A stretch of 52,803 nt of DNA. Origin: a virus. Each line of letters opens with the position of its first letter. Position 1 is the first letter of the stretch. The stretch is taken from IMG/VR virus record IMGVR_UViG_3300006865_000015, positions 1 to 52,803 of that record, one strand, 5' to 3'. Below, piece by piece: positions 26,056 through 45,846 of this stretch. Made by a program: the position numbers and the translations under genes. Under the pieces are notes generated by a model. The model searched no databases. It was given only the letters and a program-made list of their open reading frames with translations, and was not told the origin of the DNA.

Positions 26056-29000
26056 TTACTCCTCAGTGAGTTGTTTCGCCACACCTTGACCGATCGCCGG
26101 GAATGACCCGACAACAGGAAGTGAACGGAAGATTTGTGCCGTGCCCACCCTAGGATTACCATCCGGGCTGGTCACGTTGTAGACACCACGCACTGCGCGG
26201 TCACCCCATGAAAGAACAGGAGACATGTCCTTAGCGCGATCCCACATTCCAGGGTTCTTACGCTCAGGATAGAGTGGGCTGAACAGGTTGGCAACCGCCT
26301 CGCCCTTGCCAAGCAGACCAGCAGAATACACCGTACGTTGCGCTCTGCGGAGTTCATCTCGAATGAACGGGTTGACACCGTCTTCGTAGGCGAGTTCGTC
26401 CTTCAGAGCATCCGCGAAGGCGGCAAACATCAGAGCAGTACCGATGGTCACAAACGCTTGGTAGCGCATTGCGGCTGAACCTTCCTTGATGTAGTTCTTG
26501 TAGAGATTCGGCAGGACGGTGGTAGTCTGAGCAGCCACGAATCGAGTCATTGCAGTGATGATTCGGAAGCGCGGATCGTAGTAGTACTTCGGCAGGTTGT
26601 GTGCCTGCGGGTTGACGATCTTCGAGTCGATAAAGTTAGAGAGGGCACTGAGGATGTTCTCCTGCACATCTCGCTCGGCAGCATCGACATCTTGGGCCTG
26701 CAGCCAGTCCGTAGCAAACAACGCGTTGGACTCTACCTTATGAGCATCAAGGAAATCTAGCACAGCAGGAACATTCATCCCGAACTGTGTCAGCTCCTTG
26801 ACAGCCTGCGCTTGCTCGTTGGTGAGGCCCGTGTAGTAGAGGATCTGCTGCGTGCGCGTTTGTCTCGGTAACTGCGAGAGAATCCCAAGCTTGTGAATGA
26901 AAGAGTCAGAGGCCATTGCAAGAGCAGCCATACGGTTACCGTCTGTAAGAGCCCGGAGACCGATGATCTCGGCAAAGACCTGCATCATCTTCTTCATGTT
27001 GGCATAGGGAAGCTCGTACTTAGCCTGCGTGTTGTAGCTGGTTTCGTTGTAGCCTAGTCTCTCGAATAGGTTCCGGCCGAAGTCGCGCCGCCACATCGTC
27101 TGGATGTCATCTGCCAATGCCTTCACCTTAGCAGGATCTGCATTAGGATTGGTCATCAGAGCATCGTATCTCTTTTGGAGATCTTCCACCTTGGCGTACT
27201 GTGTTTCAGTGTCGTACACATCACGAGCGTAATGTAGACCCAGTGACGCACTGACCATGCCAGTCGTCTTGTTGAAGTCTGCGCGCCACTCTCGCATGAA
27301 CTCCTTCACGGCAATGTGAGTTTGCTGCACCATCTTGTTGCCAGTCGTGCCGAGCATAGCGATAGCCATCTCAGGCAAACTAGAGATTGTGGCTTTAGCC
27401 AGACCAGCAAGCATCGTAGCAGTGGTTCCCCACCCAAGGGCTTTCTCAATCAGGGGGTAGTCCTTCATCGGGTTGTAGTCACCCATCTCAATAGCATACC
27501 ATGCCTTGACTTGTTCGACAGCGTCCTTGTACTCGGCTTCAGAGTCAAACTCACCCGCCTTGTAGGCTTTCTGCAGCAGGTTGGCTAGCACCTTGCCATC
27601 TTCACCGAGAAACACCCTGTTGGCAATACGGCTGGCGATATTCTGCTTGACAGTTTCCATTGCCGCGAAGATGTTGGGCTCGAACAGGTCGTTCAAGTCC
27701 TTGTTGGCATAGACACCAGTCTTACGCAGCATTTCAGCAGCAGGTGCAGCACGTTCAGGATTACCCGACACGATGCCATCGATCGTCTGAATTGCTTGTC
27801 GCTCAGTCAAGCCCTTATCTTTCAAATGAGCAAGTAGTCGAGCGCGATTCTTGTTGATCTGCGACGGACGGACCAGCGCAGACTGCAGCAGGAAGTCTTG
27901 CTCTGCCAACTCAGGCATCTCAATGCCGAAGCGCGCAGCGGTGTTGATCATGTGGGCACGGTTTTGCTCAACAGTGTCTTTCCACTTCTGCAGGATAGCC
28001 GCGTTAGGATAATCCTCCGGCAATGCCTCTCCTTTGATCCAGAAGTCCTGCGCAGCGTCTCGCAACATGTAAGCAGCTTGATAGGTGTTGGTGCCAAGGC
28101 GAGCAGCCAGCTTGTCCAGCGAATCACCGCTCCATGCCCCGAGCAGCCTCTGCTTGAAACCAGAGTAGTTCTCCCCCGGGAGCAGACCAGAGCCAGACAT
28201 GATGGCCTTCAGGATGCCACGGTACTCTCGGAAGGTGCCATCAGGGCGGGCCACATCACGAGTGATCGTACGGGCGAGACCGCGCACAAGGCGAAGCGGA
28301 TCTGAGATGATCGCACGCATTCCACTCCATGTCCCCGGGTCACCTTCAAGGTCAGACAGCTTCGTCTCAGCATGAATGTTGAAGTGTTGTGCAGCTTCAG
28401 CAATCGACTTGAACTGGCGGCCTTCCTCGCGGATACCCTCAGTCTGCATCTTCGTGTTGAACCGATGATTGTCTTCTTGTGCTCGCTTGTTCGTCTGGAT
28501 AGCGTCGATGGCAGAGTGCCACTGCGCAGTGTCATAGAGACCTTCTCCGAGACGGAAAGCACCACCGATGGCACCACCAGCAAGAGCGGCGTTGATGAGT
28601 TCCGTCTCAAAGTCCTTCTCATAGATCAGGTCTTGAAGAGGCTTCCCCTTCGTTGCGAGCATCTCTAACAACGTCTGAGCAGCTTCAGTACTGCCTTCAG
28701 TGAGGGAACCCGCAGCGAGGGCCAGACTCCCCTTTGCAAGGCGATCTACAGAGGAAAGTTCGCGCTTGGCAAATTCTGCGGAGTGCTCCACAACATCAAG
28801 GATCTCCTTGCGAGTAGCATTGAGCAGGAGCTGGTCTGCTTCTGCGGCAGACTTTGCGATCCCACGCTCCACCAGCATAGCAGTAGCTTCTGCCCGACCC
28901 GCTTTGGTGAGGATGTTCGTACCCATCATTCCGTTCAGACCCACACGATCGAGCACTGCGGAAGGAATCCCGTACATCAGCGCCTTCACGCTGTCCTTCT

Positions 29001-30156
29001 TGTCTTCGGGTTGCTCAGCGTAGTACTGGCCAGAGTAGAGAATTGCAGCAGGCATGGCAGCAGCAATTGGTGCGCCGATGCCCGTTGCGCCAACAGCAGT
29101 GGCCACACCGCCACCAGCCACCAGCGCGGCCATCATCGGAAGGCTAGACGCCAAATTGTTCCCAACGTAGAGAGCCGTGTCAGACACCGTAGACCAGGGG
29201 TCTTTAGTGTCAATGTCTTTGTAGCTGGAGAGTGTCGTCGGTAGATCGCGCTGGAGAATCTTCTCCTTGGTCACGATCTTCTGACCTTTCTCAGACAGCC
29301 AGCTCCACTTAGACTCGTCTCCTACCATCTGAAGGATACCACCAAACGACTGGTAGGCAGACGACAAACCCAGGCTCCAACTAGTCTTCAACTGGTTGCG
29401 TGCCTGATTCATGATATTTCGATCAGGCTGGCGGACATAGACGCCCCCAACAGGATCCTGCGTAGTAGCGGCAATCATGAGGTTCTCACGCTCAGTGGCC
29501 AGCTTAGCCTCAGTCTCCGCCTTGATGTGAGCAGGCGCATCTGGATCGTCCATGATCTTTGACAGACGATTAATCTCCTCGATGCTCTTCTGCACGGCTG
29601 CGATGCCGAGGGAGTTCTTGATACCAGCGTACGCGGCTTCATCCGCAACAACTGCCTTCGGGAAGTAAACCTGCGTTTCGCCTTGCGCTTGCTGCTCCTG
29701 CCTGTCTAGCGCCTTCTTGACCACAGGGTTGTGGCCGCGCAGCGAGGGGAACAAGGTGGCTGCAGCACGCATCGCAGCTTGATCACGAACAACAGACAGA
29801 TCTGTGGAAGGCGTAATGTTGGTGATTCCAAGGAGAGTGGCCTGATCGCCTAGGTTGAGGCCACGAGCGTTGACCTGATCTGACAGGGATCGACCATAGG
29901 GGTCCGTTTTGCCAGTTGGTCGCAGATCCGTGAACCCGCCTTGTTGAGCGAGTTCATTGATCAGTTGAGCGGTATCGTCCCCAGACACCTGCCCAGGAAC
30001 GAAGATGCCACCTTGCACTTTGGCAGTCTCAGGGGCATTCAGCCCGGTAAGACGGTGGCGTTTGCCATCCACTTCAACAGTGTCGGCATCAATCTGCTTG
30101 ACACGAGAGGGATCCACGGGCTTACCGTCAATCGTCAAGATAGCGTTGTTACTCAT
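26056..30156 (-). CDS. Giant internal virion (ejection) protein with N-terminal SNase-like domain, 1366 aa
   Basis: Start placed at ATG 30156 with AGAGGAAC upstream (an in-frame ATG 5 codons earlier is less likely). Residues 1-115 resemble staphylococcal nuclease: IDADTVEV (D23, D25), HRLTGLNAPE (R35, E43) and DPYGRSL (R89), matching the catalytic Arg35, Glu43 and Arg87 of the family; the usual Asp40 is Asn40. Further along are long helical stretches and a hydrophobic segment (ASSLPMMAALVAGGG, ATAVGATGIGAPIAAAMP) able to enter membrane, as in ejected podovirus proteins. Two bases separate its stop from the start of the polymerase gene. Nuclease activity is inferred from residues only. Confidence 0.8.
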   Translation of the reverse strand: MSNNAILTIDGKPVDPSRVKQIDADTVEVDGKRHRLTGLNAPETAKVQGGIFVPGQVSGDDTAQLINELAQQGGFTDLRPTGKTDPYGRSLSDQVNARGLNLGDQATLLGITNITPSTDLSVVRDQAAMRAAATLFPSLRGHNPVVKKALDRQEQQAQGETQVYFPKAVVADEAAYAGIKNSLGIAAVQKSIEEINRLSKIMDDPDAPAHIKAETEAKLATERENLMIAATTQDPVGGVYVRQPDRNIMNQARNQLKTSWSLGLSSAYQSFGGILQMVGDESKWSWLSEKGQKIVTKEKILQRDLPTTLSSYKDIDTKDPWSTVSDTALYVGNNLASSLPMMAALVAGGGVATAVGATGIGAPIAAAMPAAILYSGQYYAEQPEDKKDSVKALMYGIPSAVLDRVGLNGMMGTNILTKAGRAEATAMLVERGIAKSAAEADQLLLNATRKEILDVVEHSAEFAKRELSSVDRLAKGSLALAAGSLTEGSTEAAQTLLEMLATKGKPLQDLIYEKDFETELINAALAGGAIGGAFRLGEGLYDTAQWHSAIDAIQTNKRAQEDNHRFNTKMQTEGIREEGRQFKSIAEAAQHFNIHAETKLSDLEGDPGTWSGMRAIISDPLRLVRGLARTITRDVARPDGTFREYRGILKAIMSGSGLLPGENYSGFKQRLLGAWSGDSLDKLAARLGTNTYQAAYMLRDAAQDFWIKGEALPEDYPNAAILQKWKDTVEQNRAHMINTAARFGIEMPELAEQDFLLQSALVRPSQINKNRARLLAHLKDKGLTERQAIQTIDGIVSGNPERAAPAAEMLRKTGVYANKDLNDLFEPNIFAAMETVKQNIASRIANRVFLGEDGKVLANLLQKAYKAGEFDSEAEYKDAVEQVKAWYAIEMGDYNPMKDYPLIEKALGWGTTATMLAGLAKATISSLPEMAIAMLGTTGNKMVQQTHIAVKEFMREWRADFNKTTGMVSASLGLHYARDVYDTETQYAKVEDLQKRYDALMTNPNADPAKVKALADDIQTMWRRDFGRNLFERLGYNETSYNTQAKYELPYANMKKMMQVFAEIIGLRALTDGNRMAALAMASDSFIHKLGILSQLPRQTRTQQILYYTGLTNEQAQAVKELTQFGMNVPAVLDFLDAHKVESNALFATDWLQAQDVDAAERDVQENILSALSNFIDSKIVNPQAHNLPKYYYDPRFRIITAMTRFVAAQTTTVLPNLYKNYIKEGSAAMRYQAFVTIGTALMFAAFADALKDELAYEDGVNPFIRDELRRAQRTVYSAGLLGKGEAVANLFSPLYPERKNPGMWDRAKDMSPVLSWGDRAVRGVYNVTSPDGNPRVGTAQIFRSLPVVGSFPAIGQGVAKQLTEE

Positions 30157-30194
30157 GGATGTTCCTCTCATGTCTATAGACCCGCAGCGGGCCG

Positions 30195-32171
30195 TTAGGG
30201 TTTCTTAGTACGACGATCTTCGATCCAGCGTAGAAAGCCGGTCATTCCGATCTTCCCATCTGCTGCACTTTCGTACCGCTCTCGAACAGAAGCAGGGAGC
30301 TTGTCCCACTCTTTGATGATCTCGTCGCTTGCTTGTTGGACGCCGTAGCTAGGATCAGCAACCTTGTTTTCGGCGATCTTCTTGTTGAGCTCATCTACGA
30401 ACTGGGCATGCGCCGCAGCATTGATCTTACCTGTCTTCGTGCGGAACAGGCCCGTGTCGTTAGGACGCAGTGCCATTACAGCATTCAGGAAGAAAGACTT
30501 CCGCAGGGCTTCACCTGCTACAGCACCATCCGCGATTTGATGCGGCTCCAGGCCTGAGATCGTGATCTCTGCCATCTTCGCAAACTGCGCGGGAGTTACA
30601 TGACGACCGAGTTCATACTTCAGAGAAGCGAACTCATGGGCCAGTGCCTTTGACTGAGCGTCGGCATCTTGGATTCGACCCTTGCCGAACATGGTACGAA
30701 GTTTGGCCTCCAGCATCTGCTGAGTGCTCTTCGTTACGTCCTCGTAGTTCTGACGGAATGCAGTCTTGCTCTCGAACTCAGTAGGATCAATGGGGATCCA
30801 CTTGCCATTCTGAGAGACCATTGCCTGCTTACCACCATCCGTATAGGCCATGACAGCGTCTTTGCCTCGCCAGAAGCCAGCTTCGTGGTTGGTGAACTTC
30901 GTGCTGCTATTCGGGTTACTGCCATCGTCCAGGTCCGGAGACGCTGTCAGCAGCATGTTTGCACGGCGATAGAGCTCCCGCGCGGATTCATACTTGCCTT
31001 GGAGTTCCAGAGCTTTCGCCTTGTTCATCCAGTCGATGGCTTGGGCTTGAATCTCAGGTGCCTTCTTGGCAAGAGCCTTGATCGAATCAGAGTCCATTCG
31101 GCGGAGATCGGCCCGAAGTTCCCGTTGCATCTGAGCCTTGGCAGCTTCTTGTGCCTTGCGCTCTGCAGCCTCTTGCGCACGACGAGCATCGCTAGCTCGG
31201 AGGGTCTCCAAGCCAGCGTACCGGAAGGAGCCACCCACAGAGCCACCCGTCAGGAGGCCACCCGTGGCGATGACTGCGAAACGAGCCAGATCCTTCTTGT
31301 CGAAGAGGCCAGTCGGTCCCCAGAGCTCGCTGATGGCGCTCTCCAGGAAAGATCTCCGCTCAGGGGTATCTTCCTGCGTCGGAAACTGCTCACGGTCTTG
31401 TTGCTGAATCACTTGCAGGTGGTTCCGGATATTCGGTTCCTGCAAGGTGGCTTCGATGCGAGCGGCACGTTCCTCGTCGGTGTCAGGAGCATCCACGGTG
31501 ACTTCTGCGACCGGCGACCGCTTCGGAGGATCTACTCGTTCGAGAGGCATCACAGGGGCTTGGCTGTCCTTGACCATGCGGGCTGCCTCCCTCTGTTTGA
31601 CTTGATTGAACTCGCCAACAGAGAGGTTTTCGTTACCGGGCTCGTAGATCGCCTTCATACCAGCACGACGCAGCGCAACATCCGGCCTTAGACCCCGGCT
31701 CGGAGTGCCAGCAGGGAGGGTGGCCACCGGAGTGGGTTCACCAATCGTAGCACCAGGACTGTCTGTGATTGCGCGACTGCGGGCGAGTTCCCCTTCGAGG
31801 ATCTGCCGAACGCGCGGGTCTTTGGTATTCTCCAGCTCGGCTTTGATTGCGATGACATCAGACGCCGCGCGACGGCGGGCGGCAGCACCAGCATCAAGCT
31901 CTTCTTCTTGCTGAATACTACGAACACGAGCGAGTTCTTCTTGAATCAAGATTCGATCTTCAACATTGGTAACGCTACGAAGATCATTCTCAAGCTGCCT
32001 GACTCTGTCCGCATTGGTCGGTTGAGCAGCGGCGTCTGCTTTGATATCAGCAACGACGTTAATACCCGAATTGCGTTGACCCACCTTGTGTCGGCTAGCA
32101 ATGTCAGAGCCCGTACCAGTCGGAACAAGTTGGAACATACCACGGCCTGCCTCTTGGGCTTCCGGGTACAT
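30195..32171 (-). CDS. Internal virion protein, probably made as a -1 frameshift extension (658 aa from ATG, 678 aa from the slip site)
   Basis: The frame contains ATG 32171 but has no ribosome site there, and it stays protein-like upstream of that ATG (VGPSLLTPEQEAARAEF then NRMYPEAQEAG) back to the slippery site at 32231-32237. A -1 shift would join residues 1-178 of the upstream 184-aa protein to 678 residues of this frame, giving about 856 aa. The sequence is mostly long charged helices, with two similar coiled segments (RVRQLENDLRSVTNVEDRIL and the later IKAELENTKDPRVRQILEGE) and a basic C-terminus. A role as ejection protein is inferred from its place between other internal proteins. 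A true upstream mutation is the alternative explanation. Confidence 0.8.
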   Translation of the reverse strand: MYPEAQEAGRGMFQLVPTGTGSDIASRHKVGQRNSGINVVADIKADAAAQPTNADRVRQLENDLRSVTNVEDRILIQEELARVRSIQQEEELDAGAAARRRAASDVIAIKAELENTKDPRVRQILEGELARSRAITDSPGATIGEPTPVATLPAGTPSRGLRPDVALRRAGMKAIYEPGNENLSVGEFNQVKQREAARMVKDSQAPVMPLERVDPPKRSPVAEVTVDAPDTDEERAARIEATLQEPNIRNHLQVIQQQDREQFPTQEDTPERRSFLESAISELWGPTGLFDKKDLARFAVIATGGLLTGGSVGGSFRYAGLETLRASDARRAQEAAERKAQEAAKAQMQRELRADLRRMDSDSIKALAKKAPEIQAQAIDWMNKAKALELQGKYESARELYRRANMLLTASPDLDDGSNPNSSTKFTNHEAGFWRGKDAVMAYTDGGKQAMVSQNGKWIPIDPTEFESKTAFRQNYEDVTKSTQQMLEAKLRTMFGKGRIQDADAQSKALAHEFASLKYELGRHVTPAQFAKMAEITISGLEPHQIADGAVAGEALRKSFFLNAVMALRPNDTGLFRTKTGKINAAAHAQFVDELNKKIAENKVADPSYGVQQASDEIIKEWDKLPASVRERYESAADGKIGMTGFLRWIEDRRTKKP

Positions 32172-32184
32172 GCGGTTGAATTCT

Positions 32185-32237
32185 GCCCGCGCTGCCTCTT
32201 GCTCAGGGGTCAGCAGCGACGGGCCAACGGGAAAGGG
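32185..32237 (-). promoter_or_regulatory. Programmed -1 ribosomal frameshift signal
   Basis: Read on the minus strand, the heptamer CCCTTTC (32237-32231) is in the X XXY YYZ phase of the 184-aa frame (GT C CCT TTC). A 6-nt spacer CCGTTG follows, then a stem GCCCG-T-CGCTGC paired with GCAGCG-CGGGC: 11 base pairs with one bulged T and a 17-nt loop (32212-32196). The zero-frame stop TGA (32212-32210) lies in the loop. Slip sequence, spacing and stem all fit canonical -1 signals. Confidence 0.8.
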
Positions 32238-32764
32238 ACAGCGGTCGTCCCATCCGCGTAGCCTGCGGCCTTATCTACTTGCATATTGATCTGCTGGCCG
32301 CGACCCGCGAGCAGGTCTCTTGCCTGTCTTGCAGCCCCCGTGCCAATAGGCACCGCGCTAGGGTTCCCCGTGAAGTGCTGCATCAGACCTTGCAGGGCCT
32401 TGTTGGCTTCACGCCCCTCCTGCACGAGACGAGCGATGATGCCTTGGTTCTTCGGGTCTTGCGCGGCCGGAGCCGGGATGACAGCCTCACCAGGGGTGAG
32501 CATTGCCGGTTGCACATCAGTAGGTTGAGGTGCAGGTGCAGCCAGCGGGGCGCGAGCAGCAGGCAGCGGCGAGCGGGTACCCACACGAGGCTCCACACGT
32601 ACAGGCGCTTCCACGCCATACTTCGCAGCCAGGCCCCTCATCTTCAAGGCGTGCTCTTCTTCTTTCTGACGCATCCTCTGCGCCGCTTCGAGCGATTTGC
32701 GCTCTTGGTCAGCAGCCACAACCCAATCGTTGCGACGTTCTTCACCACTCAGTGGTCCACTCAT
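32210..32764 (-). CDS. Internal virion protein, short (zero-frame) form, 184 aa
   Basis: ATG 32764 has an AAGGAGAA site. The N-terminus is a charged helix (EERRNDWVVAADQERKSLEA), followed by a Pro/Ala linker and the conserved phage virion motif QPAMLTPGEAVIPAPAAQD. It ends GYADGTTAVPFPLARRC. The ADGTT-VP motif also occurs in the neighbouring 276-aa protein. The slippery site is in codons 177-178, so this would be the product when ribosomes do not shift, and the N-terminal part of the longer fusion when they do. Confidence 0.8.
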   Translation of the reverse strand: MSGPLSGEERRNDWVVAADQERKSLEAAQRMRQKEEEHALKMRGLAAKYGVEAPVRVEPRVGTRSPLPAARAPLAAPAPQPTDVQPAMLTPGEAVIPAPAAQDPKNQGIIARLVQEGREANKALQGLMQHFTGNPSAVPIGTGAARQARDLLAGRGQQINMQVDKAAGYADGTTAVPFPLARRC

Positions 32765-44730: not shown

Positions 44731-45846
44731 TCAGGCCCCGTTGAGACCGAAGATCAGACCGCAGCCCTTCGGGTTACGGCACTCCAGGGTGCCTTCTTCC
44801 ACGATCTGGCCGATGATCGAGTCACCGAGTTGGCCCAGATCAACTTCCTGCGTCGGACGCAGAACAGCCCACGCGAACCACATCGGATCGTACACCAGCG
44901 CCGAGAAGTTGGCCGTGGTATCGAGACCGGGGACACCCGTGTAGGCAATACCCATCACGTAGTTCGGAACGACCATGATCGCGCCGAAATCCGACTCGTA
45001 GAATTCCACCGACTGGCGGAGCTTGCCCGACGCATCGATGCTACGACGCACGTTGCCGTCGCCAGCGTTCGTGGTCGAGGAGCCAGCCAGCTGGGCACGA
45101 GCCGAGAAGGCACGGCGGTTCGACGGAGACAACATCAGCCTGGAAGCCTTGCCGCCATTCTCATAGATCGCCTGCATCACCGTGTCAACGTGAGCCAGCT
45201 GCAGCGGATTCTTGTCGGCAGACGTCACCGTGGTGAACGTGCCAGCCACACCGCCGCCCGGGTTGGTCGGAGCGGTGTACTCTCCCGGGGTCGTCAGCAC
45301 GTTGAGCGCCGTCGCCGGGGTGCTCGTTGCAGCCGTGTAGTTGACCCACGCTTGATAGCCACCGAACGTGCGGATACCAGCGCCGTTGCTCGACTGCCAA
45401 GTGTTGACAGCACCGAACTCGATGTCACGACGCATTTCCACACCACGCTTCTTCAGCTGGTAGGCGTACTCGTCGGCGACACCGGCCTGATCCACAGCGC
45501 GCTTCGAGCCAGTGACGGTCACGGTCTTGCTGTTGATCTGGCAGTAGTTACCCAGGCGGGTACGGTGCGGTTCAGCGGCTTGCGCAGCGTGTTGCGTCGC
45601 GTACGACACGCCTTCAGCCACAGCACCTTGGACCGGAGGGGCCAGTTCGTCGGTCTGCCACTCGTGCAGAATCGCCTTGGCCTTGGTCTTGCCGATCGAG
45701 CTCAGGAACGGGGTCTCGTCGCGCGAGATCATGCTGATGAAGTTGGCGAGATCTTCCTTCTCACTCGCGTTCGCCGCGTTACCGGTGGCAGCGGCCGAAC
45801 GAATAGCGGCCTTCGGACCGCCAGTGGCAAAGGTATTGCCAGCCAT
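44731..45846 (-). CDS. Major capsid protein, SU10-type (DUF5309), 371 aa
   Basis: The HK97-fold family of phage SU10 is recognised by DETPFLSSIGKTKAKAILHE and HEWQTDEL (61-68), followed by GVSYATQHAAQA and GNYCQINSKTVTVTGSKRAV, and later FGAVNTWQ and YESDFGAIMVVPNYVM. Residues 1-40 are a short Ala-rich N-terminal arm that could be processed or ordered on maturation. It follows the scaffold gene, as usual. Hairpins on both sides (45874 and 44684) suggest control of transcript level. AAAGGA before ATG 45846. Confidence 0.9.
   Translation of the reverse strand: MAGNTFATGGPKAAIRSAAATGNAANASEKEDLANFISMISRDETPFLSSIGKTKAKAILHEWQTDELAPPVQGAVAEGVSYATQHAAQAAEPHRTRLGNYCQINSKTVTVTGSKRAVDQAGVADEYAYQLKKRGVEMRRDIEFGAVNTWQSSNGAGIRTFGGYQAWVNYTAATSTPATALNVLTTPGEYTAPTNPGGGVAGTFTTVTSADKNPLQLAHVDTVMQAIYENGGKASRLMLSPSNRRAFSARAQLAGSSTTNAGDGNVRRSIDASGKLRQSVEFYESDFGAIMVVPNYVMGIAYTGVPGLDTTANFSALVYDPMWFAWAVLRPTQEVDLGQLGDSIIGQIVEEGTLECRNPKGCGLIFGLNGA

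Follow-up and report, generated by a model that had tools for sequence, protein, structure and literature searches.

A late gene of a short-tailed phage is broken between two reading frames at a module joint, and a lineage-specific -1 frameshift at the break may yield the N-terminal module on its own as well as the complete fusion; we put the probability of this reading at about 0.52. The gene lies on a 52.8-kb viral contig, analyzed over its whole length (the window), which carries its late genes on the minus strand. The weights given here to frameshifting, to a deletion, and to two ordinary genes are judgments made without calculation.

A late gene divided between two frames

Genes recognized in the window encode a portal, a scaffold, a major head protein, a terminase, a DNA polymerase, a T7-type RNA polymerase, and a primase/helicase-like protein; neither Rfam families nor tRNAs were found in it. 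The portal shares 52% identity with its counterpart in Roseobacter phage CRP-7. The closest relative found is IMGVR_UViG_3300029171_000235, a contig of 6.4 kb whose portal shares 78% identity with that of the window; this contig ends short of the split gene. The elements considered below are as follows.

32210..32764, minus strand: 0-frame ORF of 184 aa, with a good Shine-Dalgarno (SD) sequence (-9.3 kcal/mol)
32210..32212, minus strand: TGA stop of the 0 frame, at the top of the stem
30195..32270, minus strand: -1 open frame, the C-terminal part of the predicted 856-aa product (658 aa if the start is ATG 32171)
32169..32171, minus strand: first ATG of the -1 frame
32136..32138, minus strand: second ATG of the -1 frame, a candidate independent start with an SD-like AAGAGG
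32231..32237, minus strand: slippery heptamer C_CCT_TTC, in phase (codons GTC CCT TTC CCG of the 184-aa frame)
32225..32230, minus strand: spacer CCGTTG, 6 nt
32185..32224, minus strand: GC-rich stem-loop (arms 32224-32212 and 32196-32185, 5 + 7 pairs, bulged U at 32219, 15-nt loop)
26056..30171, minus strand: 1371-aa late gene downstream of the -1 frame, a conserved neighbor that served to find relatives
44731-45846: major capsid gene (phrog_1328), distinct from the split gene

The 184-aa ORF forms the N-terminal module of a long virion-type protein, with the motifs GPLS..., LTPGEAVIPAP.AQDP, and GYADGTTAVP, and is homologous to the N terminus of 50 relatives in which the gene is continuous. 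The -1 frame is homologous to the C-terminal part of the same proteins. The -1 frame has no stop between 32270 and 30195 and shares 58 nt with the 0 frame. The predicted products have the lengths given in the original prediction, 184 aa without a shift and 856 aa for the fusion with one.

Synteny and the muralytic domains of relatives make this plausibly an internal virion or ejection protein. Such domains (SLT or Pesticin-like) are present in three IMG/VR relatives (L075, L008, and L103) and in CRP-7. The window's own protein gave no PHROG assignment, no significant Pfam match, and no recognized muralytic domain. A worn SLT domain in its -1 frame (AEFNRMYPEAQEAGRGMFQLVP) was judged by eye and set aside, as no search backs it.

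The split gene is followed by the 1371- and 1272-aa genes, a late position with large neighbors. The 1371-aa gene starts at 30171, 23 nt past the stop of the -1 frame, with a ribosome site that is unusually weak for this phage (-3.2 kcal/mol). The N terminus of its family (29900-30171, minus strand) carries a conserved stretch, IDPDTVK...YRL.GFNAPE, that resembles a thermonuclease-type motif and was not recognized in a Pfam search; two Rhodopseudomonas genomes match the 1371-aa protein in this stretch only.

Coding character runs through the junction. The 30 codons of the -1 frame from the slip site to ATG 32138 have a codon score of 7.9, compared with a coding mean of 7.8 and with -14 and -17 for the other two frames, and shuffled sequence equals this score with a P of 0.0002. 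These values bear out the view that the -1 frame is protein-like upstream of ATG 32171 up to the slip site; since it is codon-typical across the 0-frame stop, its translation begins, or once began, ahead of that ATG. No ATG, GTG, or TTG stands in the -1 frame ahead of 32171. This first ATG had been said to lack a ribosome site, which holds to the extent that its site is weak (-3.6 kcal/mol), but ATG 32138, at long spacing, pairs well with the anti-SD sequence (-8.2 kcal/mol versus a late-gene median of -6.7). Taken together, these results make a second start less likely than continuous translation, whether through a frameshift or through a frame that the real genome has intact.

The same evidence bears on an arrangement of two ordinary genes, in which the N-terminal module would end at its stop and the second gene would start at ATG 32138 or 32171 by re-initiation. 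We consider this improbable. While the SD sequence at ATG 32138 is fair, the 24 codons that separate it from the 0-frame stop are, read in the -1 frame, as codon-typical as real genes (score, 6.6), the 71-nt gap is long for the tightly packed genes of this phage, and the heptamer and hairpin would become a coincidence.

The slip site, its hairpin, and chance

CCCTTTC stands in the correct phase of the 184-aa frame, as originally predicted, reading C_CCT_TTC at 32237-32231. The motif C_CCU_UUC is among those with high-level frameshifting in Escherichia coli, and the usual distance from heptamer to structure is 5 to 8 nt (Sharma et al., PMC4066793). The stem starts 6 nt past the heptamer, inside this range; the spacing and the single bulge are as first described, but the stem has 12 pairs, not 11. 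The 42-nt hairpin has a stability of -23.2 kcal/mol. A second in-phase heptamer, T_TTC_CCG at 32234-32228 on the minus strand, overlaps C_CCT_TTC, and the combined slip site (32228-32237, minus strand) reads CCCTTTCCCG.

If this site is a frameshift signal, the majority of ribosomes on the gene would terminate after 184 aa. The hairpin 6 nt downstream would pause a fraction of them, and paused ribosomes would slip one base back on C_CCT_TTC, with new pairing of the Pro tRNA to CCC and of the Phe tRNA to TTT. Slipped ribosomes would then read the -1 frame to make the 856-aa protein, the counterpart of the single long protein of the relatives, and the signal would have arisen recently, in this lineage alone. 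From the sequence we infer the occurrence of slippage, its efficiency, and the use of both products.

Such a heptamer is rare in this phage. Of 8488 late-gene codons, 12 carry an in-phase X_XXY_YYZ motif, and two of the 12, the slip site included, belong to classes that are efficient according to Sharma et al. (PMC4066793); the sole case of H_HHT_TTY in these 8488 codons is the slip site, in phase within the 58-nt overlap. The hairpin ranks in the top 0.3 to 0.4% of late-gene 50-nt segments by stability. When its GC-rich stretch of 61 nt is shuffled, it does not stand out from the local composition (z of -1.2, with 23 of 200 equally good), which counts against the frameshift.

The gene may instead be one continuous frame, as in its relatives, on a contig that is short one base near the junction, whether by an assembly or sequencing error or by a recent natural deletion. 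We regard this as a serious possibility, though one with less than even odds. Deletions and assembly errors also arise at strong GC hairpins and in short homopolymers, and the junction is a string of short homopolymers beside a strong hairpin, crossed by coding character with no start codon. A search of viral contigs with the DNA pattern of the junction returned 15 unrelated contigs, and it is because no second copy of the phage was found that a deletion, as artifact or mutation, keeps its weight. On the other hand, an efficient in-phase heptamer with so stable a hairpin is rare under deletion models. Among 4000 simulated random one-base deletions in the window's late genes, 0.7% placed an efficient in-phase heptamer in the frame overlap, and none of the 4000 combined a heptamer with a hairpin of -17 kcal/mol or below. 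Deletions within homopolymer runs produced any heptamer in 6 to 9% of cases; for runs of at least 3 the share was 6%, and 0 of 916 had a hairpin of -20 kcal/mol or below. Both models leave aside that strong hairpins may themselves provoke indels. Over the 31 kb of the window that have homologues, this is also the only frame break observed. In its sequence, the site has what a -1 frameshift signal requires, and its origin by chance is unlikely.

The joint in related phages

IMG/VR was scanned with the 514-aa, 226-aa, 1371-aa, and C-terminal proteins, which gave about 200 loci, and continuity was counted over 51 distinct copies, each covering both halves of the gene. All are distant, with at most 60% identity in the well-conserved 226-aa neighbor. 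Exact-peptide scans of viral contigs with the 658- and 1371-aa proteins yielded no relatives, two scans of genome contigs gave nothing useful, and CRP-7 was the sole match among annotated phages searched for the syntenic genes.

The gene is a continuous frame of 708 to 1212 aa in 50 of the 51 copies, and the slip motif is absent from the joint in all 21 continuous relatives scanned; in the continuous L008, the joint reads GYQDGTTGV-TLTDEDVVRRESGGNP. Programmed frameshift sites are usually conserved. Conservation of the heptamer and stem had been proposed as a check and failed, the one other split copy having an ordinary ATG. Relatives with a single frame and no slippery site had been named in advance as pointing to a sequencing error or a broken gene, and this is largely what we found. 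Both this failure and the single contig that represents the phage count against frameshifting, and the continuity of 50 copies, among them three of the window's four closest neighbors in the 226-aa tree, favors the loss of one base. To call the site a textbook programmed frameshift is thus too strong for a single contig with a nonconserved signal, although the sequence features and the coding-like -1 frame stand.

The sole split relative (L103/L088; IMGVR 3300005525_000062 and 3300005528_000269) was recovered from two samples, with one mismatch over the 14.8 kb compared. It is cut at the same module joint as the window, right past the GY..GT motif. A GAGG Shine-Dalgarno sequence and, a few nucleotides on, an ATG serve the second ORF, whose protein begins with an SLT transglycosylase-like domain; there is no slippery site. 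A TAA stands directly ahead of the ATG in the same frame, so a frameshift from further upstream cannot join the two ORFs. This genuine split speaks for two ordinary genes in the window as well, as do the separate N-module ORFs, with ordinary starts, of CRP-7 (gp36/gp35) and of L178 and L180. CRP-7 probably shares the two-gene arrangement of L103/L088; as evidence for frameshifting its split was ruled out, for no heptamer lies in its overlap and gp35 starts at an ATG with an ordinary SD. For the frameshift reading, it is a favorable point that the window breaks exactly where another relative is genuinely split, which also counts against the loss of a base.

Several lineages have this family divided at the N-module joint or close to it (L103, 3146-5908; L001, 11697-16474; L178, 4963-5760; L180, 6622-7440). 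Where it is split, the second ORF tends to open with a muralytic-looking domain (SLT or lysozyme-like). Some continuous relatives have a muralytic domain at the same place inside the single protein, and its type varies between phages.

In the 226-aa tree, the window and four relatives (L150, L117, L120, and L123) group together with support, and within this group L120, the split contig of L103, pairs with the continuous L123; the 1371-aa tree gave the window no resolved place. Because L103's contig groups with a continuous relative, two separate splits are likelier than one, and a split inherited from an ancestor common with L103 is disfavored. The break in the window was therefore probably its own event, as judged from this tree.

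Comparison with known frameshifting systems

More tentatively, and at somewhat less than even odds, we propose that an ejection-type gene of a short-tailed phage uses frameshifting to make the N-terminal module and the fusion in a fixed ratio, with a sister lineage making the protein in two parts through a normal second start. If real, this would add a further class of virion protein to those made by programmed frameshifting, and the dose of the free module would matter in DNA ejection or virion assembly. The relatives offer a natural comparison, since they make the same protein as a single chain, as two genes, or as a putative frameshift pair.

In short-tailed phages, frameshifting has been described for the capsid genes of T7, T3, and phiEco32-like phages such as Privateer (PMC5009743, PMC7881722). 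We found no description of it in ejection or internal virion proteins in the open-access literature, in line with the original prediction, which knew of no such case; this lack of precedent weighs against the frameshift. The split gene is neither a major capsid gene of the T7 10A/10B type nor a tail chaperone of the lambda G/GT type. Like gene 10A/10B of T7 and T3 and the phiEco32-like capsid gene (GGGAAAG in Privateer), it is a putative podovirus structural gene, whose protein would come in two lengths through -1 slippage. Yet those are major capsid genes whose long form is observed in virions, whereas the window's is a different late gene with a predicted long form, which would be more than four times the length of the short one, unlike in the capsid genes. 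Lambda G/GT likewise has an X_XXY_YYZ heptamer, with the -1 shift late in a short first ORF, but it encodes an assembly chaperone of long-tailed phages and is conserved across relatives, in contrast to the nonconserved signal of this short-tailed phage.

Among homologues, the single-frame podovirus proteins of IMG/VR (such as L008, L015, L123, and L104) have the same N-terminal module, C-terminal domain, and gene order as the window, but they are continuous ORFs of 708 to 1212 aa with no slippery site at the joint, and L008 and L075 have an SLT domain after the N-module. L103/L088 is cut at the same joint, with the second frame -1 relative to the first as in the window; it differs in having its own SD and ATG there, no heptamer, and an SLT domain at the start of the second protein. 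CRP-7 gp36/gp35 likewise has an N-module-type ORF followed by a long ORF, but with an ordinary SD and start, a rearranged N-module, and a lysozyme-like (Pesticin) domain at the start of gp35.
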